Assembly: GCA_001630475.1 (NCBI GenBank)
Contig: KV419414.1
Span: forward strand, 459,100 to 523,099
DNA length: 64,000 bases
Source: Sistotremastrum niveocremeum HHB9708
Taxonomy: Eukaryota > Basidiomycota > Agaricomycetes > Sistotremastrales > Sistotremastraceae
Reading direction: 5' to 3'
Shown here: in pieces, positions 17,589-64,000 of the stretch
Position numbering within the stretch: the stretch's first letter is position 1
Layout of the letters: every line of letters begins with the position of its first letter
The notes under the pieces: model-generated
What the model saw: only the letters and a program-made list of their open reading frames with translations
Told to the model about the DNA's origin: nothing
Database searches by the model: none
Translations under genes and position numbers: made by a program

Positions 17589-19138
17589 ATGCCACGCCGT
17601 GGGCCTCCTTTGACGACTGCGGATGCTCAGAATCCGCCAGCCCATCTGAAGTACTTACAGAGAACTCAGTCTAATCGTATGTCTGTCGTTCGGTCTCGCA
17701 TCGCCACCTACTCAGCCTTTTCTCTTAGATGGTAGTCCTTTGCCTCCCCACAACGGCGGTAGTGGCATGGAAATCCCGCCGCTCATGATCCATGGTTCAG
17801 ACAGAGAAGGAGGGTCCGGTGTTCATCAAGTGGGCGAAGAAATGTTCTGGGAAAGCTCTCCGAATATCAATGTCAACCGTAAGTCACATAAGACTCGTCC
17901 ACTCCATGCTACTCATCTGAACTTCTTTACTTCTTGAAGGCGCCGCACCATTCGAACGCGTCAGAGTGCCACCTCCACCACCTGCTCCCATAACACCGAG
18001 GATTCGTGCTCCTCCCAAATGGCCAGGAGAGACGGTCGGACAATGCCACGCCGTGACGGGGGGAGGCGGAGGTCCTCGATGCTCGAAACCAGCTTCAGGC
18101 GGGCTATATTGTGGACAACATTCTAGCATGCAAAGTCAGTATATAGGCTACCTCTTCCTTGTCTAGCACCTCTCATGATGTGTGACAGATGTCGTTTCCA
18201 TTGCCACCGATCCCGAACGCGCCTCGCCAGCGGAGAATGCCCAATGTTATGGCCAAACTACTGCTTCAACCCGAACCAACCGAGTGAGATGCAAGATCAG
18301 GCCACCGGGTGGTAGAGGCATTGTCTACTGTCATTATCACGGGGATCAACGCGAAGATGATATGAGAAGATATCCGGATGATTTCGCGTCTGATGATGAC
18401 GGACCTGCACCAGAGCCGGCGCAAGGTTCGGTACATGTCACCGCCCATGCTAGATATGACGGTGGACGAGCTCGATCGGAAATGCGTCCCAGACCGATTA
18501 CGCCGTTGGATCGTCGCCCACCTTCTCCCGTCCCATCTTCCGCAGGATCGCTGCGTTCCGAAGAACTCGAGGACTTTATCTCAGATTCTATCTCAGAGCC
18601 GGCCGAAGAAGACCAAGCCGATCTACTTCCTAACGACGAAGAGCTTGAGCGCTACAGCTCCTATTCGTCTTTGCTCGTTGGCCTGTCTCTTCCTAGACGT
18701 TCGCTCCTGGAACTCGATTCCACTGCAAGCGACGTGGGCACAGAACGTGATGACTTCGTCACTGAAGCAGTTGACTTGAGTCTTTCCCGAGAGAGCGCTA
18801 GGGAGTCCTCTGCACCTCCAAGTCTTCCCATTGTGTCCGCTCAGATTACGGCCCAATCTCAGGATGTCGAGGTCGCGAAGGATGCAATGTTCCCCGGTGC
18901 CTTCAGCGACATCATCACCCCTCAATGTTCGAAGTCGGGCCTTCGCGAACTCAACTTTATCTCTTGGCACAAGATCTTCGTCTTCATTCTGATGATGATC
19001 TTGGCCCTTTTCTTCACCGCTGATCCCACAACGCCCAATGGCATCTTGACAATCGATGCTGCCGAACAAAGTGATCGTATGATCATGGAACTCATTCAGA
19101 AAGGAGTGCAACTTGTGATGAATCACGTCAGAACTTAG
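17589..19138 (+). CDS. Two-finger C-C-C-H membrane-anchored protein (array gene 1)
   Basis: Exons 17589-17676, 17729-17878, 17940-18134 and 18189-19138; 460 aa. Seen: a Pro-rich N terminus with WPGET just before finger 1 (QCHAV..PRC..LYCGQH, C-x11-C-x9-C-x2-H, residues about 114-140), then finger 2 (QCYGQ..VRC..VYCHYH, C-x14-C-x12-C-x2-H, about 164-195), RRYPDDF, a long acidic/Ser-rich linker, and one hydrophobic segment (KIFVFILMMILALFFTA, about 404-423) close to the C terminus. The layout suggests a single-pass protein with the fingers in the cytosol, but topology is inferred. The module resembles short CxA-x-T..G..C..YCxxH domains annotated as unknown function (DUF5763-like) in other organisms; I cannot confirm the family. 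Genes 2-4 are clear paralogues. Confidence 0.72.
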
Positions 19139-20238
19139 GAGCCGAAGATGGATGCACTCATCGACTACTTTTTTTCTTGGACTTCTCGAAGACATGGTCG
19201 TATGCTGAAGGCATGACGAATGTCACTTCTCCAGTTTGCTTGACTCGAAGAGCCAAAGGGCTTCAGTATAGTTACACATGTATACGTAAAATATCTAGTT
19301 GCACTCTCCTTTCATAATAATAACTGCCATTCCTTATCTATCGTGTCGGAGCATCGAATCCATGAATACCTGAATACATGCTGCTGATGCTGTGCCCGTG
19401 CAACGCATCTGAGCAGCATCTCCGAAGTTCCGACCCAATCTGCTTCCGCTCCGTTGCTCCAACTGCCCCTCGACGCTCGTGCCGGACTACAAGGCACTTT
19501 CTGACGCGGCATCCTAAACCATAGGTTGACCCACCACATATGGAGCTCGTGCATGCATATCGGACTGAGTCTCCTCTTCTTCAACGCCTTGGATTCGTTA
19601 TTGTGCCCTGGCAGCGCGATCATCGGCTTCACCTCAGCACGACTGACATTGCAGGACGTTGTTACGTGATAACGGAACCCCTTTAGAGAATACAAAGCCT
19701 TCAAGGCGCGGCGACCGGCCTGAGCTGGCGGCGGACGAAGCAAGAAGTTTACGACGGCGCACCCTCGTTAGTGAAAGGGGCCCGAGAAGACCGCTGCAAG
19801 TGGAATTTCCAATACCTGTCTCGACAATAAAGGGGACTCAACCTGCTTGTGACTCGAATGGGCTCATATATCCATCTAGAGCGCCATCGGTCCCGTCGAC
19901 ACGTCCGCTGCGTGTGCGATGTTTCGACGTCAGGAGCTGACCGGAGGCTGATCCCACCACTCTTGCTCCTTTTCACCTCAAGCTACACGCAAGAGCAGAC
20001 CTTCGAAGCTGTATCGCTCCAGTCCCAGTCAGTGGCGTTCGTCGTTTCGTCCCGGGATCTCCCCATCACGGCGGTACATCCGACTGCACCTGTTCGTGTC
20101 GTTTTGCAACGTCCGGAAGTCTTCTCGGCGCAATAACTCGGTTCAGTCCAAGGACGTTTCAGGAGCATCGGTCTCGTCGCCCGGAAATTTGAGTAGTGAG
20201 GACGCCGATCTATCCAGCCAACCCAGTACAAACCCGCG
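19139..20238. other. Spacer between array genes 1 and 2, possibly with a 5' exon of gene 2
   Basis: No complete gene. Around 20105-20225 a frame encodes SSRRNNSVQSKDV, similar to the start of gene 3 (SRGTTSNTSQSKEL), but it lacks an ATG in line and meets TGA at about 20240. It may be an unrecognised first exon of gene 2 or a decayed copy of the 5' end. Confidence 0.35.
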
Positions 20239-21778
20239 ATGAACGCGGCCGAAGGTCAATATAATTTTTAAGACTGTGTCGATGATTATTCAAATCTTGT
20301 TTTTTCTCAGCTGCTTCAACTAACTCTGCTGAGTATGCCCAGCGTAAGAAGACAGAATGGCCAGAGGGTGAAAACCTTCGGTGTTATGCGATCAACGTTA
20401 GTAACGGTCTGCGTTGTGCTCGCGCATCTGGAGGTGGGGAATTTTGTTGGCAACACTATGGAATGGGCGATCGTAAGTTTCAGTATATTTCCCTATGTTG
20501 GCCTTCTCTGACTCCTTTCCAGGCGCAGTCTCCTGCAAAGGCATGGCAGAATATGAGAACCTTGGCGGCAGTTCACAGTGCTATGGCGAAACTCTCGGGG
20601 GCTCAAGATGTTCCCGTCGGTTCGCTGTATACCAGAAGATTGTTTACTGCGACCAGCATGAAAAGCAGTACGACGACGACAGGATAAAGTTTCCCGATGA
20701 CTTCCCTATGACTGTTCCCGTTTCGTCGGCCGTCAAGAAAGATTCGCCCGCCAATGTCGCGACACAGGCTAGTCCCAGTACGATAGACGAGCCGCATCAA
20801 GCCTCCGTAGCGCCGTCCACTTCAACATCCATCGATCCCGCGGGGCCTGTGACTCCACCGACCACTCCTAGTCGAGTAACACACGCTCCTGCGAGCAGCA
20901 CGAAGAAAGGAGATGGTGAGATCACAACGGGTGGCGACCGCCTTTCATCCGTTAAGTCTACCGGAATTGCGACCCCTCCTCAAACACCTGCATCAAGGCG
21001 CAACCCGCCTTCGGAGCAAGTTCACCCGAAGAAACCTATCGTAGAACCGCCCAAATCAATCCAGACCAGTGTTCAGGCTTCCAAGCCAGCGTCCCCGGTA
21101 CTCCCTTCCCCTCCGCCCACTCCTCCCCGTACGCCGGTGATCGCGGATAGGTCCACTGTGTCAAACGCGACCCCTGTGAAGAAAGAGGAGCTCATACACT
21201 CGTTGGCACCTGGAAGTCCTTTGTTCTTACCATCCAGCCCTTATGCTTCGTTATTCGGCATTGCTCCGAAGGCAGAGAAGGATGCAAAACGCGCATCACT
21301 TTTTGGTCCACGTCGAATGGAGACATCCAAGGACGTGAACATCGGACGCCAGTCGTTGCCACAGGGCAATACCGAACTCACGTCCAGCTTTACGTCGGGA
21401 AAGAATAGAAATATTCCCTTTGTTGCGACCAGAATTGGTCCCTCGGCTCCCACATTTTCGAAACCGAGACCTTCAAATCCAAATGCAAAGCCAGTTTCTG
21501 GATGCTTGGATACTGTAGTATCTCCCGTTAAGACATTTGGCGACCATCTTCCGCTTCGTGTCCACTGCAGAGAGCCAGACCCCTCAACACTCAGTGCAAG
21601 GGCTGAGGCAACTGAACACGGAGGACTGGCGAGGATGACGGCTGAAGATCTCGTGCTTGAAAGTATGAATGCATGGGCCTTTCTTGCGAGCAAACTGTCT
21701 CGTATTCGTGAGTCGACGGGCAAGGCTGGATGGAGCCTGCTGGGACATTTGACGAAATCAAGCTCACCAAGATTTTAA
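20239..21778 (+). CDS. Two-finger C-C-C-H protein with MNAWA tail (array gene 2)
   Basis: Exons 20239-20254, 20311-20472 and 20523-21778; 477 aa in this conservative model. The 5' end is uncertain: a donor at GTACAA about 13 bp upstream would link a longer non-ATG frame in the same phase. Seen: WPEGE before finger 1 (RCYAI..LRC..EFCWQH, C-x10-C-x9-C-x2-H, about 29-53), AVSCKG, finger 2 (QCYGE..SRC..VYCDQH, C-x9-C-x12-C-x2-H, about 78-104), then FPDDFP. A long Pro/Ser/Thr linker contains several TPP-type repeats and LFG dipeptides. The C terminus carries RMTAEDLVLESMNAWA, shared with gene 3. No transmembrane segment. Function unknown; a nuclear or cytosolic scaffold is a guess. Confidence 0.65.
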
Positions 21779-22830
21779 AACGTATGGCATCTTATCATCT
21801 CCGAGCTTTTGAATCCACGCCTGACTCTTGTCTTGTCTTTTCCTCCACCTGGTTCTTTCTTCTACCTCGTTGACCAATCTCAAAGTTGGACTTGGGATCC
21901 CGGTGACTACTGGTAGACAAGTAGTAAGACGATGCCTCCTTTTCGCAATCACTCTTGAGTATGGTCCAGAATAATGATTCGATAATTTACTATTCTTTCT
22001 GAAAATAAAACCCCTCGTTGAAGCTATTACCAATGATTCTGCATTCCTTCTGCGATGATACTGCGGATTGGTCAGGCTACCCGATTTTTTTGGAATGATT
22101 CGAGTCCGGCCTCCTTTGGTCTGAGCTCCGAATTCCGAATTTGCTTCCACTCAGTGTCCTCTGCAACACTCAGAGAAACCCTAGGGCCGACTCTGCCATG
22201 CCGTCTCCCAGAATCTCTATTGGAAATGAGCAGCCTTGTATCTCTGCTCCGTCCGTCTGCGAGCTGCGGGCTGATATCCCTCCCTCTTGGACACTCCAAA
22301 TCGTCAGTTAAAGTCTGCACTGGTGATGCAGCGAGACCTCCACTACCTGGAAAGTTGCACCGTGCTTAATGCACGTCGGTCCTCAACAACTGAGATTCGT
22401 TGGAGCGTATGAATTGTGGGAGATCGTCACTATAGACTCAGCCATTGATCGACGCCGCAAAGTCTCCGGCAAAGGTGCCACCCTCGCTAGGAAAAGAGGC
22501 TCGGCAAAAATGCCACAGATGCAAGACCCGATGCTTATCTGCAATACAAAGAGGAACAACTTCATCGTGACTCGAAAACCCTCATATTTGTCTCTTTGGT
22601 TGCTGGTCCCGTTGGCACGTCAATAGTGAGTGAGCCACTTCCTTATCTCTGCATTCGGCGACTTATAATCTGGGTCGTAGAGTCTCGCGTGATTGTTCAC
22701 TCTCTTCCTGACTTCATCCTACAAGCTCGGACCTCTCAAGAACGTGCCGCCCATATCCCACTCAGACGCGTTCGTCTTCGTACTAGGAATATACCCCCCT
22801 CTTTTTCGGTACATCCCAACACACTCGATC
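21779..22830. other. Spacer between array genes 2 and 3
   Basis: About 1 kb with no supported gene. The last 100 bp, pyrimidine-rich, probably include the leader of gene 3. Confidence 0.5.
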
Positions 22831-24737
22831 ATGTCGCGCGGCACTACCTCGAATACCTCTCAATCCAAGGAACTTATCTATGATACCGACGGATTCATTC
22901 ATTTTGAGGAAAAGATAAGAATTCCACGTATGTCGCATCTCACCACCTCGACCGTCCTTTATCCGACCTTCGCTGCCACAGCCACAGCCACTTCCAAATC
23001 CAAAGCCAAGTTTAGTGGCAGCAACAATAAGGCCATTGAGAGGACTTGCGAAGATTTGGTGCGCAGCTGGGAAAGCGACAGTGACTTCAGCAGTGACGAT
23101 GATGACTCGCCTTCCAGTTGGCAGTCCGTGGGAAGCGTCGCTGAAGGTGAATCTCGATACTGTTCACCGAATTTTGGGACTGAATTTTGCTAGTTGTTCA
23201 CAGTCCGCCTGCTCCAATAAAGAAGACGAAATGGCCGGGAGAAACGAACACTCAGTGTTACGCGCTCAATGGGGGTGTTGGTCCACGGTGCTCGCGTGCA
23301 GCTGACTCCGGGGAATTTTGTTGGCAACATGACGGGATGGGCAGTCGTGAGTTTCACTGCTACTCAATACGTGTACATTATCTAATGCCATTCCCAGGAG
23401 CGGTCTCCTGCAAAGGCAAGCCAGGCTATAGTGGGCATTGTGGCAGCACACAGTGTTATGGCACAACAGGCTGGGGCTCAAGATGTGAACGCCGATTTGC
23501 CACAAGCGAGAGGATTACCTATTGCTGGCAGCATGAAAGGCAGTCTCACCAGGACAGACTTGCCTTCCCAGGTGACTTCCCTGATATTGCCCCAGTCCGG
23601 CCGGCGATTAAGGCGGCTTCAGCAGGCGAAGTCGTCGTGCAGGCGAGCTGCAAGAAAGCGGACTCACATCATGAACGCTCGTTAGCTTCGTCCAACGCAA
23701 TCACCACCAAGCCCATGCTCCCTGCGACTCCGCCAGCCACGCCTCTTTCCAAATCTAGTTCTGCCTTGAGTGTGACGAAGATTGAAGCGAGTCACACTAA
23801 ATCCCGTCGCGAACAGTTTTCAACTATCGAATCTTCCGTGTTCGCTTCACCTCCTCCTACACCTCCTCCGTCAGTTCACAAGGAACCTTTGAAGAAGACC
23901 CAGAAGAAGAAATTGAGATCGGGCCAGACTAGTGATCGAACCACCAAGGAGACTCCAAAAGTTCGTCTCCCCCCTCCCTCGCCCATCTCGCCGGTTGGAA
24001 ACAAATCCTCTGCGGTTAACGTCTTCATTGTAAAGACGGACAACATCAACATTTCGTTGGGCTCACAAAGCCCATCCTCGTCGATCCCTGGCCCTCTGTT
24101 TGGTGGCACAGCGATTGGAAATGACGTCCGCCCGAGAGCGAAAGAAGTGCAAGCGAAATCGCCCTTCGACTTTAGTGACTTGAAACCGTCGACAGCAGTG
24201 AATCTAGGTTTCACATGGTCAGTTCCTCAGAATATCAAACCGACGAATGCGTCCACGAACATCTTCACTTTCGGAAAGGTCAAAGACGAATCTACGTCGA
24301 CCCCTACAGGCTTTCCAGCCTTCACGTTCTCCGGGTCGAATCCTCTCGTTTCGAAGCCCGTCTTTGGATCTACGGACGGGACAGTCTTTCAAACTAAGGC
24401 CAATAAGAAGCAACCAAAACTGCCTGTTAAAACCGAGCAGACAAGTTCGGCATTGCCCTCGGACACTCCCTCTGCTCCTTCTCCCATGAAAGTGAAGGAA
24501 GCCGGGACGGAAGCTCAGGTCAAGGTCAAATCGACAACTAACCACAAAGAGAGGAGGATGACGGCCGAAGAACTGGCTCTCGAAAGCATGAATGCTTGGG
24601 CATCTGTCTCATCCACATCGTCTCGCGACTCAGCCGGCAAATCTATATCGAGCACTCCCGAAAGTTCGGAGAAGTCAAGCTCGGCCTTCGTTCTCAATGA
24701 AAAAGATCTCGAATTTCTTGAAACGTACGTCATTTAA
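22831..24737 (+). CDS. Two-finger C-C-C-H protein with FG-like motifs and MNAWA tail (array gene 3)
   Basis: Exons 22831-23146, 23194-23346 and 23398-24737; 602 aa. The second intron (51 nt) has no stop and is a multiple of three, but the matching intron in gene 2 supports splicing. Seen: an acidic SD-rich segment (WESDSDFSSDDDDSPSSW), KKTKWPGET, finger 1 (QCYAL..PRC..EFCWQH, C-x10-C-x9-C-x2-H, about 126-150), AVSCKG, finger 2 (QCYGT..SRC..TYCWQH, C-x9-C-x12-C-x2-H, about 176-202) and FPGDFPD. The linker is Pro/Ser/Lys-rich with scattered FG or FxFG-like dipeptides (GPLFGG, IFTFGK, FTFSGS, PVFGST). The tail has RMTAEELALESMNAWA. The first exon could instead end at GTATGT near 22929. Function unknown. 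Confidence 0.68.
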
Positions 24738-25732
24738 ATCACAGTATCCAGGTCTGATTCTGACTGTCGTCCTGTCTTTTCTCCTGTGTGGCGCTTGGCA
24801 CTCTTTGGGGTCGATCTCAAAGTTCGGCCTGGGCTTCCAAAGACTAATAGTGTTCCAGTCAAAAGGAGGCTTCCCCAAGTTTACAGACTGAGCTAGAGAC
24901 AAAATTTTCAACTAATTTTATGATTTATTGATACTCTATCCTGATGCAGCGATAACCTATAGCAGACCTGTTGATATTGATACCTACTGTCCCTTCTGGA
25001 TAAGTCCTTCCCTAGTTATTTATCGTACTGTTCGGCTTCCTGTACGGCCTACAAACATACATTCCATTTTCTATACGACTTTTCAGCTTCAGCTTCGGTA
25101 ACCAGTGGATGATGACGCATCTGGATTGTCTGCTTCCGAGCCGCTGCCTGGTCAAGGTCAACCGGCCAAGTTCCTAAACGCTGCAACATTCTCTGCTCAT
25201 CCCTGGTTGATCCTCGATGCTGAATTGGTTCCAGAAAATTTGACTAGGCATCACTGAACTCTTTGCGACGCGCCCGGCTTCCATTTATACCTACCAGTGT
25301 CTCGTACCGCGGACCAGTTGCAACATCGGAATCCAGTCCAGCCGCTATAGACTTTCGGCCAAAAAATACCATTTAATCCATCACAACTTACTGATCAGGC
25401 CTAAACATCAAGACATACCGGTTTCTGGCAACAGAATGGAGAAGAGTTCGTTCGCAGCTGACTGGCCTCGTGGCAGACCCTAACGGTGTGAGGAGCGCTC
25501 TGGATAAGGCAGCATCTCACGGCATGCGTGAATCCAGTTAAAGCCTTATTTGATCCAGAGACTGAGCACGCCGAACCTTGTCCACGCTGCAGGAGTTGAT
25601 GCACTGATCGCCACCCCTATCATTTCATTGGCTCTGTGCTAAAATCTCTGTGCGACCAGTGATTTCCCCTTCCCCGGTTCTCCTTTCAGAATCTGTGCCT
25701 TCTGTGCATGTTCGGTCTCTCCTAAAGTCATC
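24738..25732. other. Spacer between array genes 3 and 4
   Basis: About 1 kb with no supported gene. An unrecognised 5' exon of gene 4 may lie here, because its proposed ATG sits only two residues before the first finger. Confidence 0.4.
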
Positions 25733-26987
25733 ATGAGCTGTAAGGCCGTCAATCTGAAAAGTACCCCGTGCCAAAGATCTTCCAGCGAATCGGGATTTTG
25801 CTGGCAGCATGAAGGCGAGTCCACGAGTGCAGGTCTGTCCCGACTCCCTACCTTCCTCTCGTTGTGTTCATCCTAACCTCATTTCGTTCCAAGAAACGTC
25901 TTCCGCTGCACCGCAAATTCGTCATGAAGAACCTTCTCAGGTCACATGTGAGACTCTGATCGCTGCCGAAGAAGATCTCTCGGCCCCCGATAGAGAGGGA
26001 GAGGTTTCCGAGGAGCCTGCCGACGATGCTGACCGCAATAGTGAGTCTAGAAATCCCTCGCTACATTTTTCAAAGTATATAATGTGCCTCGAGGTCTGAC
26101 TGTATTGGACACCGCCCACGACGAGCAGGAAGGTCCTGCTGGGCAGACCAACGTCGCAATCCCTGCAACGAATGAAAATGCGACCACCGAATGGATGGAG
26201 GAGACGAATAAGCAATGCTCTGCCGTCACCTTATTTGGGACAAGGTGCATCCGCGCGTGCAATTCACAAAGCTATTGTTGGCAGCACGAAAGAAAGAGCA
26301 CCAGTGAGTTCTTCAATATGCCTGACGCCATGTCATCCTCACTGACGAGACCTACAAGGCGTAGTCTCTATCACCGATAGTCCGAGATATGCGCATCTCG
26401 CGCCGAGCGTCCAATGCTCAGGCACGACTCTCAAAGGCAACAGATGCTTGATCAGACTCAAGCCTGACAGCCAAGGAACCGGATACTGTCACCATCATCG
26501 ACGCGAGACCGTCATCGCACCAAATCCTCCGATGTCCTCCGTGGACGTGGCTATCGACGCGACCAGAGATATCACGACTGTCGATGTTGGCTCGCGAGTT
26601 GAGGAAAGCATCCCCGCACCTGCTCAGCCTACTCAGGTGGCAGTCGCTAAAGGTACAATATCCTGTCAATATCTTATATCATTGCTGAATCCCCTTGTTA
26701 AAGGCCCTACCATTCTGATACTGGACGACACGGATAGTGAAGGCGAAGAGGAGACTGCTGTTGCAACACTAGCCCCAAAACTATTCGAACGCGGAGACAA
26801 CATGGCGTATTACTACGCGCTCATTCTATTCATCTCGACCTTACTATCTATGTTCTTTACGGCGAACAAAGCAGCTTCCATCAGTATCTCTCAGATCGAC
26901 GGACCCATCAAAGGATGGACCTTCCAAAACGCCATTTGGGCCGAGATCTGCAAGCGTGTTCAATTTGCCTGGGAATACGCCTTTTGA
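25733..26987 (+). CDS. Three-finger C-C-C-H membrane-anchored protein (array gene 4)
   Basis: Exons 25733-25832, 25894-26040, 26094-26303, 26359-26652 and 26704-26987; 344 aa. The last intron (51 nt) is stop-free and in phase, so it could be retained. Seen: finger 1 at residues 3-27 (SCKAV..TPC..GFCWQH), an acidic linker, finger 2 at about 124-147 (QCSAV..TRC..SYCWQH), then VVSIT as in gene 1, finger 3 at about 175-203 (QCSGT..NRC..GYCHHH, C-x9-C-x13-C-x2-H). A hydrophobic segment (YYALILFISTLLSMFF, about 286-305) precedes a short C-terminal tail. It is closest to gene 1 in splice layout around VVSI and in having the anchor. Two fingers of the short type precede one long type, which suggests internal duplication. 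Confidence 0.68.
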
Positions 26988-59229: not shown

Positions 59230-59510
59230 TGTTAGATATCGAGTTCGTTACTGAGGCCGAGCCCGGTTAGCACTCACCGCGCTATGCCACTCTGTCGGAG
59301 TGCGGAGTCTGAATAATCGCTGCGACTGTATAGTAGGCTAGCGGAGTTTCATGTAGACCTCAGTGCTTGTAACAGACACTGAGGTCAGTACCTATTTCGT
59401 AGTCCCTTTATTCGCTCACTCATCGCCTGTACAGACTATATTTCGTACAGGTAGTTCTAGCTAATATATACTGAGTGCTTGTAACAGACACTGAGACTAT
59501 ATTTCGTACA
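59230..59510 (+). repeat. 5' LTR of the copia element (281 bp)
   Basis: Begins TGTTAG and ends GTACA just before the primer-binding site. It contains two copies of an inverted-repeat unit with CAGTG/CACTG arms (about 59370-59393 and 59471-59495) and two copies of AGACTATATTTCGTACAGG (59433 and 59494). Confidence 0.9.
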
Positions 59511-59524
59511 GGTTATGAGCCCTG
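59511..59524 (+). other. Primer-binding site, half-tRNA initiator Met type
   Basis: GGTTATGAGCCCTG follows the LTR directly. It is complementary to the anticodon stem-loop of initiator tRNA-Met, as in Drosophila copia, rather than to the tRNA 3' end. Confidence 0.65.
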
Positions 59525-59612
59525 CGCTCTAGTCATCGTACCAATATCCGTCTTCGCTCAAGGCATCACTCACTCATTTTCTATCCATCTCATCGACTCC
59601 AAGCCACCAAAA

Positions 59613-62600
59613 ATGTCATCAACCGAGAGCACAACCCAGCGGCGATTTCCTGCTCTAAAAGGGATGGACAATTATTATGTGTGGAAGATTCATATGAAAC
59701 AGTTCCTGATTTCGATAAAGCTATGGAAATACTCCTCTGGGATGGAACCAAAGCCGACCACTACCTATGCCACGAAGACGGCTGCAGACGGTACGACAAC
59801 AACGACCCCTACGCCACCCGATGCCACTCAACTCGCTACCTGGGTCGATAACGACGGCAGAGCACTCGCCGAAATCATGTTCGCAGTCGATGGAAGTATA
59901 TTGCCATTAATCGAACTAGTTGAGACGTCTGCCGAAGCGTTGAAGATCCTTTCGAACACCTACGAGAAAAAGGGTGCACTGCACGAAATCACACTCCAAC
60001 AGCAATTCTTCAGAACAGTCCTGGACGAAGGAGGGGAACTAGAACCTCATCTCAATGAGCTAGTTCGGATCAAACACCAGCTGGCACACCTTGGCGTAAT
60101 TATCAGTGATCGTCAACATGCCTCCACCATCCTCGCATCCCTCCCGGAATCCTGGACTACCTTGGTTCAGACATTCACTCCAGCCACCATTAACATGGAC
60201 GAAGTCCCTATCAGGGTTGCTGAAGAGTACCAACGAAGGCGTGCAAAAGGAACCGAAGCAGCTCTTGCGGCCAGGACTAATACGAGATCAGCTGTTAGAC
60301 CTCGGTGTCAGAACTGTGGTGTCTCAGGACATATCAAGGAAGCGTGTTGGGGCATTGGGGGCGGAAAGGAAGGTCAGGGACATCCTGATCGACCCTACGG
60401 GAATATAAAAACGCCAGAACATCCAAATGGACGTCCTCGAGCACGAATTGCGGATGCCACAACCGCCACGACTTCCCCAGTCACCCCAGTGGCAAACTCA
60501 GCCATCGCTGTTGATACCCAGATCGACCCACGTGCTTTCGTCGCAGCATTCACTGCTGACTTCCTGAATGGTTATGTCATCGATTCCGGTGCCACTCGGC
60601 ATATCACAGACAACATCAGTGATTTTGTCTCCATTCAGCCAGCTAGCGTGTCGATCAAAGGGATAGGCGAGAACTCTGTTCATGCCTCAGGTGTTGGATC
60701 AGTCCGTATCACCTGGAACGATACTGGACTCACCACCGAGCTCAAAAATGTCCTGTACGCTCCTCACGGCGGTGTGCGACTTATTTCTAAGGCCCAACTC
60801 GATGCAGACGGCTGGGAATCACGTTCCAAGCTTGGGATCGAAAACTGGTATAATCAGAAAGGAAAATTTATTGGGACAGCCCACAAGCGTAATGGAATGT
60901 GGCCCATCAATGCCGCCATTGAGATCCCGCGTGCTCATGTCTCCAAAGTTCCCCATGCCCCAAAACCAAACATAAACCTCTGGCATCGGCGTACCTGTCA
61001 CCAAGGAGTCGATTCTGTCATCTCTATGATCAAAAACAACCTCGTCGAAGGCATGGAAGTTGATCCTACCGATCTCCTACCCGATGCGCCACTCCCAGTC
61101 TGTTCCCCATGCATCATGGGCAAACACCAAAGGACCACCTTCCCTTCTTCGAAAAGTCGTGCCACTCGTCCTTTGGAGCTCATTCATGCCGACCTATGTG
61201 GACCTTTCAGCGTTATATCGAAAGGGGGTAACAGGTACTTCCTGGGACTCACAGACGACCATACCCGGATGTACTGGGTTTATTTCCTTCGTGACAAAGC
61301 TGGCGTACTCGACATTCTCAAGTCATTCAAGCCAATGGTTGAGAACGAAGTTGACTCCACCTGGAAGCGATTCAGAACTGATAATGGCGGGGAATTCATG
61401 AACTCAGCAATATCTGCTTGGCTCACCGAACATGGGATCATCCACGAAACAACCGCTCCATATTCGCCTGAACAAAATGGCGTTGCTGAACGTGGCAATC
61501 GCACCATTATGGAGCGTGTTCGTGCCATGCTCTATGCTCGAAACGTGAGCCTCTCATTCTGGGCCGATGCTGTACGAACCGCCACTTACCTCCGAAATCG
61601 CAGTCCGTCTAGTGCAATCAATGGTCGAACCCCCTACGAATTATGGAGTGGGGGAAAACCGTTTGTGGGACATCTACGCGAATTCGGGGTAAGGTGTTGG
61701 GTACATGTGCCAGATGAGATGAGAAAGAAGCTGGAGCCAAAGTCGGTTCAGTGCATCTTCTTAGGTTATTACGATCATAGTAAAGCCTACCGATGCTTCG
61801 ATTCCAAATCCCATCGCTACTTTAAATCATGCCATGTTATTTTCGACGAATCCCTGCATACCATTGTGGAAATCCCCTTTACTTCGTCTGCAGGGGGAGT
61901 AAAGCTTCTGGAATCCGATTCAGCATCCGTCAACAAACCATCAGACACGGAAACGTCAGAAGAAATACCTGAAGACGCTGTAATCGAACACCATCATACC
62001 CATGACGAAGAACCACAGCCAGCAGTCGAAACAACAGCTCATCGTGACGGAAACATACCAGAAGCAGATGCAGACGAATTAAGGAGATCCCAACCTCGGA
62101 GCGAGCCAATGCAACAGCACCTAGAGCCAATTCAACAAAGGAAATCTCGTCGTAAGGCCAACCTACCCCCAGAGATTCTTGTGCCACTCGATGGAGCTCC
62201 CAACAACGATGCAGAGGATGATTCAGATAACGAATCTGAGCTCACGCCGCCTCCGTCTGAGACAACTGAAATCATGGAACGAGAAAATCGAGCTTTCAGT
62301 GCTCATGCACGACTACCTTCAGGCATGGAACCCAGATCGTACGAAGAAGCGATTAATAGTGAGGACAGAGAGCATTGGATCAAAGCCATGGAAAGTGAAC
62401 ACGAAACACTTCAGCAATATGGCACGTGGTATGTTGGTAAACGACGGCCTGGAGTTCAGCTAGTTGGCTCTAAATGGGTCTATCATATCAAACACGATGC
62501 CAAGGGAACAATCACCAAATATAAGGCACGTCTAGTGGCCCAGGGATTTTCGCAGAAATTCGGCGAGTTGTATTTCGATGTATTCGCTCCAGTCGGTCGT

Positions 62601-63911
62601 TTCGAGTCTCTCCGGATTGTCATCACCCTAGGAAAAAGACTTGGATGGGTAACCAGGCAGGGAGACGTCAAATCAGCGTACCTCAATGGCATACTTGAGG
62701 AACAGATTGATCTCCGGCAACCCCAAGGCTTTGAAGAAGGCGACAAAGGGGATGTTTGCATATTGCAGGCCCCCTTATACGGATTAAAACAGGCCGGACG
62801 CGTATGGTACCTCCATATCAATGGGATCTACAAAGAACTTGGATTCCAGAGGATTCATGTCGATCATGCTGTCTATATTCGTCACACTAATACCGGAGCA
62901 AGTATTGTCAACATGGCAGTCGACGACCTTGCGATGACCTCCAGCTCTGATGCCGAAGCAGATCGCCTCGAACATGAAATTGGCGAGAAGGTCCAGATGG
63001 TCTTCGGCGGAGAACTCCATTGGCTATTAGGCCTAGAAATTGTCAATCAAAAGGACGGATCTTGCATAATGACGCAGAGAGCTTTTATTGACAATATTCT
63101 TCAACGGTTCAATCTTGACAGCTACGAAGTCAAACCTGTCTCGACGCCATTAGACCCATCCGTGACCATTGATAGCTCCATGTCACCTTCCCTTGACGAC
63201 CTCGAAACCATTGAAGCCATGAAGAAAGTCCCATATCGCCAAGCTCTAGGCGCCCTCAACTATCTGGTTAGTGCCACCAGACCGGACATTGCACACCCGG
63301 TTCAAAAGCTTGCCCGGTTCAACAGTAACCCCGGTCCTGGTCATTGGACAGCTGTGAAAAGAATTCTCAAATACCTTAAGGGAACGCGGAACCACGGCCT
63401 TCGACTGGGAACCAAAGGAAGCAACGTGCCACTCGAGATCTACTCGGATGCTGATTGGGCCGAAGATCGAGACAACAGACGATCTACGTCCGGATATGCT
63501 GCCTATTGCTTTGGTAGCTTAGTGGGTTGGAGTTCCAAACTGCAACCTACTGTTGCTCTATCGACCCTCGAAGCAGAATACATGGCTGCCTGTCATGCAT
63601 TACAGCAAGGTCTTTGGATGCGAGAGTTTGTCCGAGAACTCAACTTCGCCACAGATGATCCCACACCTGTCTATGTAGACAATCAAGGTACCATTGCATT
63701 CGCTAAGGGATCCACTAGCTACGGCAGAACCAAACATATCGATATCCGACACCATTTTGTCCGGGAACGACTTGAAGCGAAGGACATCAGTCTTAACTAT
63801 GTTCCATCCAAAGACAATGTTGCCGATCTATTCACCAAAGCCCTCGCTCGCCCTCTTTTCGAGACTCACCTACATACTCTCGGGATTCACGAACTCGAGG
63901 GGGAGTGTTAG
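59613..63911 (+). CDS. Copia gag-pol polyprotein
   Basis: One frame of 1432 aa with no internal stop. Seen in order: Gag-like region (MDNYYVWKIHMKQFL), a CCHC knuckle CQNCGVSGHIKEAC at about 232-245, protease VIDSGAT (Asp about 324), an HHCC-type pre-integrase domain (LWHRRTCH..CSPC), integrase catalytic D,D-35-E at about Asp527, Asp590 and Glu626, reverse transcriptase with KARLVAQG, VKSAYLNG, and AVDDL at the active site (about 1101-1105), and RNase H (YSDADWAED, STLEAEYMA, HIDIRHHFVRE). The stop codon TAG lies within the first bases of the 3' LTR. An upstream open extension to 59475 begins within the LTR and lacks an ATG. All catalytic residues are present, so it may be active. Confidence 0.93.
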   Translation: MSSTESTTQRRFPALKGMDNYYVWKIHMKQFLISIKLWKYSSGMEPKPTTTYATKTAADGTTTTTPTPPDATQLATWVDNDGRALAEIMFAVDGSILPLIELVETSAEALKILSNTYEKKGALHEITLQQQFFRTVLDEGGELEPHLNELVRIKHQLAHLGVIISDRQHASTILASLPESWTTLVQTFTPATINMDEVPIRVAEEYQRRRAKGTEAALAARTNTRSAVRPRCQNCGVSGHIKEACWGIGGGKEGQGHPDRPYGNIKTPEHPNGRPRARIADATTATTSPVTPVANSAIAVDTQIDPRAFVAAFTADFLNGYVIDSGATRHITDNISDFVSIQPASVSIKGIGENSVHASGVGSVRITWNDTGLTTELKNVLYAPHGGVRLISKAQLDADGWESRSKLGIENWYNQKGKFIGTAHKRNGMWPINAAIEIPRAHVSKVPHAPKPNINLWHRRTCHQGVDSVISMIKNNLVEGMEVDPTDLLPDAPLPVCSPCIMGKHQRTTFPSSKSRATRPLELIHADLCGPFSVISKGGNRYFLGLTDDHTRMYWVYFLRDKAGVLDILKSFKPMVENEVDSTWKRFRTDNGGEFMNSAISAWLTEHGIIHETTAPYSPEQNGVAERGNRTIMERVRAMLYARNVSLSFWADAVRTATYLRNRSPSSAINGRTPYELWSGGKPFVGHLREFGVRCWVHVPDEMRKKLEPKSVQCIFLGYYDHSKAYRCFDSKSHRYFKSCHVIFDESLHTIVEIPFTSSAGGVKLLESDSASVNKPSDTETSEEIPEDAVIEHHHTHDEEPQPAVETTAHRDGNIPEADADELRRSQPRSEPMQQHLEPIQQRKSRRKANLPPEILVPLDGAPNNDAEDDSDNESELTPPPSETTEIMERENRAFSAHARLPSGMEPRSYEEAINSEDREHWIKAMESEHETLQQYGTWYVGKRRPGVQLVGSKWVYHIKHDAKGTITKYKARLVAQGFSQKFGELYFDVFAPVGRFESLRIVITLGKRLGWVTRQGDVKSAYLNGILEEQIDLRQPQGFEEGDKGDVCILQAPLYGLKQAGRVWYLHINGIYKELGFQRIHVDHAVYIRHTNTGASIVNMAVDDLAMTSSSDAEADRLEHEIGEKVQMVFGGELHWLLGLEIVNQKDGSCIMTQRAFIDNILQRFNLDSYEVKPVSTPLDPSVTIDSSMSPSLDDLETIEAMKKVPYRQALGALNYLVSATRPDIAHPVQKLARFNSNPGPGHWTAVKRILKYLKGTRNHGLRLGTKGSNVPLEIYSDADWAEDRDNRRSTSGYAAYCFGSLVGWSSKLQPTVALSTLEAEYMAACHALQQGLWMREFVRELNFATDDPTPVYVDNQGTIAFAKGSTSYGRTKHIDIRHHFVRERLEAKDISLNYVPSKDNVADLFTKALARPLFETHLHTLGIHELEGEC
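63894..63905 (+). other. Polypurine tract
   Basis: A run of purines (GAGGGGGAG) directly before the 3' LTR, as needed for plus-strand priming. It overlaps the end of the polyprotein frame. Confidence 0.7.
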
Positions 63912-64000
63912 ATATCGAGTTCGTTACTGAGGCCGAGCCCGGTTAGCACTCACCGCGCTATGCCACTCTGTCGGAGTGCGGAGTCTGAATAATCGCTGCG
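63906..64000 (+). repeat. 3' LTR, first 95 bp
   Basis: Identical to 59230-59324 base by base; the rest lies outside the window. Confidence 0.93.

Follow-up and report, generated by a model that had tools for sequence, protein, structure and literature searches.

Ordered DUF5763-type finger pairs in a tandem gene family of Sistotremastrum niveocremeum with predicted membrane-anchored and soluble members

A tandem cluster of four plus-strand genes, each encoding two or three copies of a short module with three Cys and one His, lies between positions 17589 and 26987 of a 64,000-nucleotide stretch from the basidiomycete Sistotremastrum niveocremeum HHB9708 (assembly GCA_001630475.1, contig KV419414.1, positions 459,100 to 523,099). 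This stretch, called the window here, is the last 64 kb of its contig (C21) in a 34.7-Mb genome, and it is this genome that was used in all own-genome searches described below. An earlier note on the window had reported nine such modules in the four neighbouring genes, in a short and a long subtype, with the short one always first. In this work, we describe the predicted genes and two new points, namely a fifth, unlinked member of the family and a predicted transmembrane (TM) anchor, which the earlier note had missed, and we consider the role that the modules may play.

When all six frames of the window were searched with the pattern C-x8-14-C-x8-12-[FY]C-x2-H, nine distinct matches were obtained, all of them inside the cluster, against a mean of 0.06 and a maximum of 2 in 200 first-order Markov shuffles of the window. 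The nine modules reported previously are thus present where they were said to be. The formula printed with them, which places x9-13 before [FY]C, fares less well, as read literally it recovers the four long modules only, one of them with two possible starts; the short modules are missed because [FY] counts within their nine residues. The two subtypes are separated by the spacing between the second and third Cys (C2 and C3), which is nine residues in all five short modules of the cluster (finger A) and 12-13 in all four long ones (finger B). The short-first order also stands, being A-B in genes 1-3 and A-A-B in gene 4, and both the subtypes and the order hold in the unlinked gene 5. Across the four tandem paralogues, the order A before B is one inherited event and not four independent ones. 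With gene 5 included, the four ligand positions (three Cys and one His) are the only invariant columns over all 11 fungal fingers, and an Arg preceding C2 is nearly invariant. Two residues separate C3 from the His in every finger, and the C2-C3 spacing ranges from 9 to 13.

The spliced models of the four genes start with ATG, end with a single terminal stop, and contain no internal stop. Their exon borders were predicted from the sequence and picked among alternatives that broke the frame; the introns are GT-AG, 35-61 bases long, and in phase 1 in 11 of 11 cases. Gene 1 (17589-19138, 460 amino acids (aa)) has four exons (17589-17676, 17729-17878, 17940-18134, and 18189-19138) and three introns. 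Its finger A (C2-x9-C3) matches the pattern at 18044-18121 and its finger B (C2-x12-C3) at 18245-18340, the latter with 14 residues instead of 9 between the first and second Cys. A TM segment is predicted at 18959-19015, 40 residues before the C-terminus, with a Kyte-Doolittle mean of 2.19 over 19 residues. Gene 2 (20239-21778, 477 aa) has three exons (20239-20254, 20311-20472, and 20523-21778), two introns, a short finger A at 20382-20456, a long finger B at 20579-20659, and a C-terminal motif, RMTAEDLVLESMNAW, at 21632-21676. This motif aligns with its counterpart in gene 3, RMTAEELALESMNAW, at 24555-24599. Gene 3 (22831-24737, 602 aa) is likewise built of three exons (22831-23146, 23194-23346, and 23398-24737) and two introns, with finger A (short) at 23256-23330 and finger B (long) at 23454-23534. 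Gene 4 (25733-26987, 350 aa) has five exons (25733-25832, 25894-26040, 26076-26303, 26359-26652, and 26704-26987) and four introns. It carries two short fingers A at 25739-25810 and 26216-26287, a finger B (C2-x13-C3) at 26415-26498, and a predicted TM segment at 26802-26858, 42 residues before the C-terminus (Kyte-Doolittle mean 1.78). One predicted intron of gene 4, 26041-26075, is required for the frame and is unusually short at only 35 bases.

The earlier note had also claimed that exon borders near the fingers are common to the genes, and the predicted models agree with this. Finger A and the next finger B are separated by an intron that is in phase 1 throughout and lies five residues past the His of finger A in genes 2-4 and four residues past it in gene 1. 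In genes 1-3, and for the second finger A of gene 4, the finger A exon is flanked by phase-1 borders on both sides, while the first finger A of gene 4 is located in exon 1, which ends in phase 1 seven residues past the His. An exon of symmetric phase can be duplicated without a break of the frame, so that the A-A-B arrangement of gene 4 fits this structure. In gene 2, an intron is required to put fingers A and B in one frame; the second intron of gene 3 preserves the frame even if retained. The flanking motifs proposed in the earlier note are shared in part. WPGE precedes the fingers exactly in genes 1 and 3, but it reads WPEG in gene 2 and WMEE in gene 4, and nothing comparable stands ahead of gene 4's first finger. 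Finger B is followed by [FY]P[DG]DF in the first three genes but not in gene 4.

The fifth gene was found with a query made of exons 4 and 5 of gene 4 and the in-frame intron between them, which gave a weak own-genome match on contig C9 (E 0.0127) running through finger B. On reading, this locus was seen to contain a finger B, a linker resembling those of genes 1 and 4, and a finger A upstream. Gene 5 (C9:457629-459036, 427 aa) is predicted to consist of three exons (C9:457629-457902, 457972-458124, and 458180-459036; derived coordinates), and its two phase-1 introns bracket the finger A exon, the second of them five residues past the His. The four ligands are kept in both fingers, as is the A-B order, so that a homologue conserving the Cys and His positions exists outside the cluster, and the family extends beyond the tandem array, with five genes found in the genome. 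Used as a genome query, finger A of gene 5 matched only itself, and its relation to the other A fingers therefore rests on ligands, order, and intron positions. The N-terminal region of gene 5 contains a PPPY motif, a type of WW-domain ligand, which genes 1-4 do not have.

Gene 5 ends in a predicted TM tail as well. Three of the five genes (1, 4, and 5) thus have a single strongly hydrophobic segment that lies 33-42 residues before the end of the protein; that of gene 5 has a Kyte-Doolittle mean of 2.33 and is 33 residues from the end. The tails of genes 1 and 5 align (BLASTP 1e-8 as a single comparison; E 0.0134 in the genome search) and share an element that reads FPGAFSDIIT upstream of the TM segment of gene 1 and FPGAYGGDIIT in the unlinked gene. 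By eye, gene 4 has a similar tail, but the genome search with the tail did not recover it. No TM segment is predicted in genes 2 and 3, in which the hydrophobic mean is at most 0.81; instead, they share the C-terminal motif RMTAE[DE]LxLESMNAW behind long Ser/Pro/Thr-rich tails. The idea that genes 2 and 3 encode phenylalanine-glycine (FG) nucleoporins was dropped, each gene having three FG dipeptides (P 0.057 and 0.17 against shuffled sequence).

Genome searches with two families, one finger pattern, and eight proteins as queries turned up no convincing sixth gene, although divergent copies could escape such exon-by-exon searches. Profile matches on contigs C40, C14, and C4 were rejected as extra copies for want of a full ligand set. 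The string [FY]CWQH occurs nine times in the genome, five times in the cluster and four times outside it, compared with three matches for the reversed pattern. Three of the four outside matches were rejected because their open stretch contains at most one upstream Cys. The remaining one, on C45 (C-x12-C-x13-C-x2-H, L046 1417-1521), was taken as chance, as its open stretch has 35 residues and is overlapped by one of 293 residues in another frame; the surroundings look protein-kinase-like by eye, with no R-C signature or TM tail nearby. Weak matches on C7, C16, and C35, which do not involve the fingers of the query proteins, and one at C1:645271 (13.6 bits, profile positions 23-35 only) were set aside unread.

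The earlier suggestion that the module is related to a short bacterial or viral domain of unknown function was borne out by matches to DUF5763 (PF19067) and to the N-terminus of haloarchaeal GvpO. Gene 4 matches DUF5763 in three stretches (42.2 bits, E 5.5e-11; cut-off 26.3) and, as a spliced protein, also matches the model GvpO_arch_Nterm (NF045806) with 58 bits and E 5e-16 (cut-off 52). It is the only one of the five genes over either cut-off; gene 5 scores 13.6 bits against GvpO_arch_Nterm. In the NCBIfam scan, which covered spliced genes 4 and 5 and genes 1-4 as single exons, GvpO_arch_Nterm was the top match of eight of the nine finger exons among matches listed at E up to 1 (E 1.5e-9 to 0.85, all below the cut-off), the best single exon being that of finger A of gene 3 (E 1.5e-9, 37.2 bits). 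Against DUF5763, six of the nine finger exons match at E up to 10, with a best score of 22.7. The GvpO domain proper (PF05800) is absent from genes 1-4 and gene 5 in the Pfam scan, while it is present in both archaeal gvp-cluster proteins scanned. The fungal proteins are therefore not GvpO proteins; the N-terminal module is common to both, and no gas-vesicle function is implied for the fungal genes.

Modules of the DUF5763 type are known from archaea, bacteria, and phages and form a Pfam family without known function. The fungal fingers share with them the arrangement Cys-x9-Cys-x9-Cys-x2-His, a length of about 28 residues, and a signature resembling C-x-A-x-T-x2-G-x-R-C-x-R. In contrast to them, the fungal proteins hold two or three copies in a fixed order, with a lengthened second type and phase-1 introns between the copies, in the context of a TM anchor or of long low-complexity tails. 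The spacing C2-x9-C3 of finger A is that of three of four prokaryotic modules measured (four of six overall), the other one having x10, and B fingers are longer. A profile comparison of the nine cluster fingers with six prokaryotic or phage modules gave a probability of 98.3 and E 1.9e-14, a result that is partly circular, as all six records had been matched by fungal fingers beforehand. In a tree of these 15 fingers, without gene 5, the four B fingers group apart with support 82/84, a split under the starred level in a tree with long branches and no well-supported fork, so that the separation of B fingers from A fingers and prokaryotic modules can be taken as a hint only.

Finger A of gene 3 matched four plasmid records in tblastn (best E 0.02), three of them annotated as gvpO, and finger B of gene 2 matched no plasmid. 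With a finger A exon and finger alignments, no tblastn-confirmed relatives were found in genome contigs or in viral contigs; the gene 3 frame likewise gave no viral-contig relative, and an exact DNA pattern was not found in viral contigs, although such short-peptide searches have little power for a domain of 28 residues. The gene 3 frame also gave no phage in tblastn. On the Halobaculum halobium plasmid NZ_CP126160.1 (L028 1480-2241), the gvpO-annotated gene is situated between BrxL and a PglZ-domain gene. Its protein is over the DUF5763 cut-off, and a GvpO domain was not found among matches at E up to 0.1; the name looks wrong for that reason. A Bacteroides ovatus plasmid protein (L033 1213-1707) combines a signal-like hydrophobic start, a DUF5763-like module, and a C-terminus resembling the PBCV basic adaptor, both matches being just below the cut-off. 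An open frame of the huge Prevotella phage Lak-A2 (L035 1201-1581) contains a hydrophobic stretch and, at its very C-terminus, a DUF5763 module (34 bits against 26.3); the co-occurrence of hydrophobic segment and finger, as in the fungus, is perhaps convergent.

Other candidate relatives were rejected. An unannotated stretch of the Rhodococcus plasmid NZ_CP046100.1 (L030 ~1480-1563) has the first two Cys and WQH without the third Cys, and it is either a chance match or a decayed copy; a Halorientalis plasmid match has neither the third Cys nor the His. Matches on three Pseudomonas aeruginosa plasmids were discarded because, in the one of the three that was read and translated in its annotated frame, the match is in another frame than the annotated gene. 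An RNaseH fusion suggested by seven Pseudomonas phage matches was discarded because the match is on the opposite strand in the one of the seven read. A weak phage match, MT837073, was set aside unread. The literature searched yielded nothing recognisable as on this family, and the names DUF5763 and PF19067 were not found in it. In the accessible part of one paper (PMC9372576), GvpC is described with a zinc-finger motif, and the single mention of zinc there does not concern GvpO.

Several other zinc-finger families were compared with the fungal fingers. The zf-C3Hc3H domain (PF13891), known from KANSL2 and INO80D, is a pair of C3H units, a short one followed by a long one. Finger B of gene 5 matches the second half of its profile (positions 33-62, E 0.34, 11.7 bits; cut-off 27), genes 1-4 have no match in the Pfam scan, and, unlike in that domain, the fungal fingers are separated by a linker of more than 20 residues and an intron. 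Canonical CCCH RNA-binding fingers follow C-x8-C-x5-C-x3-H, with a short C2-C3 interval and three residues before the His, in contrast to the 9-13 and two residues of the fungal fingers, and no Pfam CCCH family was matched. The WRKY19 zinc finger (PF24906) matches the part from C2 to the His in two finger A exons (E 0.0041 and 0.019; 17.4 and 15.2 bits against a cut-off of 27), which is half the module, and it matches none of the spliced proteins. No significant match to solved structures was obtained. Under the terms searched, nothing on the fingers of KANSL2 was found in the accessible part of PMC6607013.

Taken together, these results suggest a tandemly duplicated fungal family in which an ordered DUF5763-type finger pair serves as a docking module on a membrane protein anchored near its C-terminus, with soluble paralogues. 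We would give this reading a probability of about one half. Each module probably binds one zinc ion, judging from the four invariant ligand positions. Finger 1 would be the canonical short type, on an exon of its own with phase-1 borders, and finger 2 the lengthened type on the next exon. The likely ancestral form is that of genes 1, 4, and 5, with the finger pair N-terminal to one TM anchor; the anchored form is likely the older one, given that the TM tail is common to gene 1 and the unlinked gene 5. Genes 2 and 3 would then have lost or replaced the anchor. The finger pair could form a rigid, zinc-stabilised surface on which a protein or nucleic-acid partner docks; the anchored members would hold this partner at the membrane, and the soluble paralogues would bind it away from there. 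The fingers probably face the cytosol or nucleoplasm: they precede the anchor in the chain, visual inspection of the four models reveals no N-terminal signal peptide, and reducing compartments are where zinc sites of this type usually occur. The difference in charge between the N- and C-terminal flanks of the TM segment favours an N-in orientation in genes 1 and 5. In a comparison of genes 2 and 3, finger A and the LESMNAW motif have nonsynonymous divergences (dN) of 0.29 and 0.21, compared with 0.61 in the rest (the region after the FPDDF of finger B), with synonymous divergence (dS) across regions of 0.62 to 2.16.

Several observations weigh against the docking proposal. The docking role is a best guess, chosen by default because no catalytic domain was found. 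Below the DUF5763 cut-off, genes 1 and 3 reach 18.6 and 12.4 bits, and no match was obtained for genes 2 and 5. Constraint on the linker and finger B is only mild between genes 2 and 3 (dN 0.35 against dS 0.62), and many gene pairs are saturated at synonymous sites, which makes dN/dS indicative only. The charges flanking the TM segment of gene 4 are neutral. Finally, AlphaFold2 models of a B finger and an A finger have mean predicted local distance difference test (pLDDT) values of 50.2 and 46.5, too poor to show the metal site; the B-finger model, at this low confidence, has a hairpin followed by a helix starting after the third Cys. A further peculiarity of genes 2 and 3 is the proportion of synonymous differences (pS) in the linker and finger B (20523-20668 and 23398-23540), which is 0.42 over 47 codons, compared with 0.69 in finger A and 0.68 in the tail; either local gene conversion or chance may be responsible.

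The most serious alternative is that the fingers bind DNA or RNA, in which case genes 2 and 3 would encode nuclear regulators, while the products of genes 1, 4, and 5 would be tethered at the nuclear envelope or endoplasmic reticulum or be membrane-bound transcription factors released by proteolysis. We regard this as possible though rather doubtful. Basic runs are present in gene 2 (RKK), gene 3 (KKTQKKK), and gene 5 (RKR), and the zf-C3Hc3H profile weakly matched by finger B of gene 5 is described as a 'Potential DNA-binding domain'. There is also a weak likeness of the SAP30 zinc module (PF13866) to prokaryotic relatives of the fungal fingers, seen in one of five prokaryotic proteins scanned (0.095) and in a match of the prokaryotic profile to SAP30L (2n1u, 0.57); according to PMC2711940, this zinc module is essential for DNA binding. 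All these matches are, however, below significance, the SAP30 likeness does not extend to the fungal fingers or genes, and genes 1-4 match neither family. Moreover, the prokaryotic contexts (GvpO, a protein adjacent to bacteriophage exclusion (BREX) genes, a phage frame with a hydrophobic stretch, and the signal-like Bacteroides protein) do not point to DNA.

It is unlikely that the four residues form a redox-active or disulfide-stabilised knob instead of a zinc site. The Bacteroides relative, which may be exported given its signal-like start, would suit such a role, but a disulfide does not account for a His invariant in every fungal finger, three Cys per module are awkward for disulfide pairing, and the four models lack an evident signal peptide. 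Still less probable is that one or two genes work while the others drift as decaying duplicates. Conservation outside the fingers is indeed poor (genes 2 and 3 are 36% identical in their tails, genes 1 and 4 20% in their C-termini), yet all four models are full-length without internal stops, all ligands are kept with mixed TGC/TGT and CAC/CAT codons, and the GC content at third codon positions (GC3), 0.50-0.55, is within the 0.45-0.56 of six neighbouring frames.

The docking proposal can be extended, more tentatively and at less than even odds, to a eukaryotic family of membrane-anchored adaptors derived from an ancient archaeal, bacterial, or phage metal-binding mini-domain. These would carry an ordered two-finger code, canonical then lengthened, on a symmetric phase-1 exon, and tandem duplication would have given rise to anchored receptors and to soluble, tail-swapped versions with the same finger pair. 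A fungal family of five copies in one genome, with two ordered finger types and in anchored and soluble versions, would offer a tractable eukaryotic system for studying the metal, partner, and location of the module.

The neighbours of the cluster in the window include a Zn(2)-Cys(6) protein, an isocitrate lyase, a WDR75-like protein, and a copia-type element. The latter, a long terminal repeat (LTR) retrotransposon with an open frame of 1478 aa, occupies positions 59230-64000. Identical direct repeats of 95 bases are located at 59230 and at the contig end, where the second LTR of the element may be cut off.

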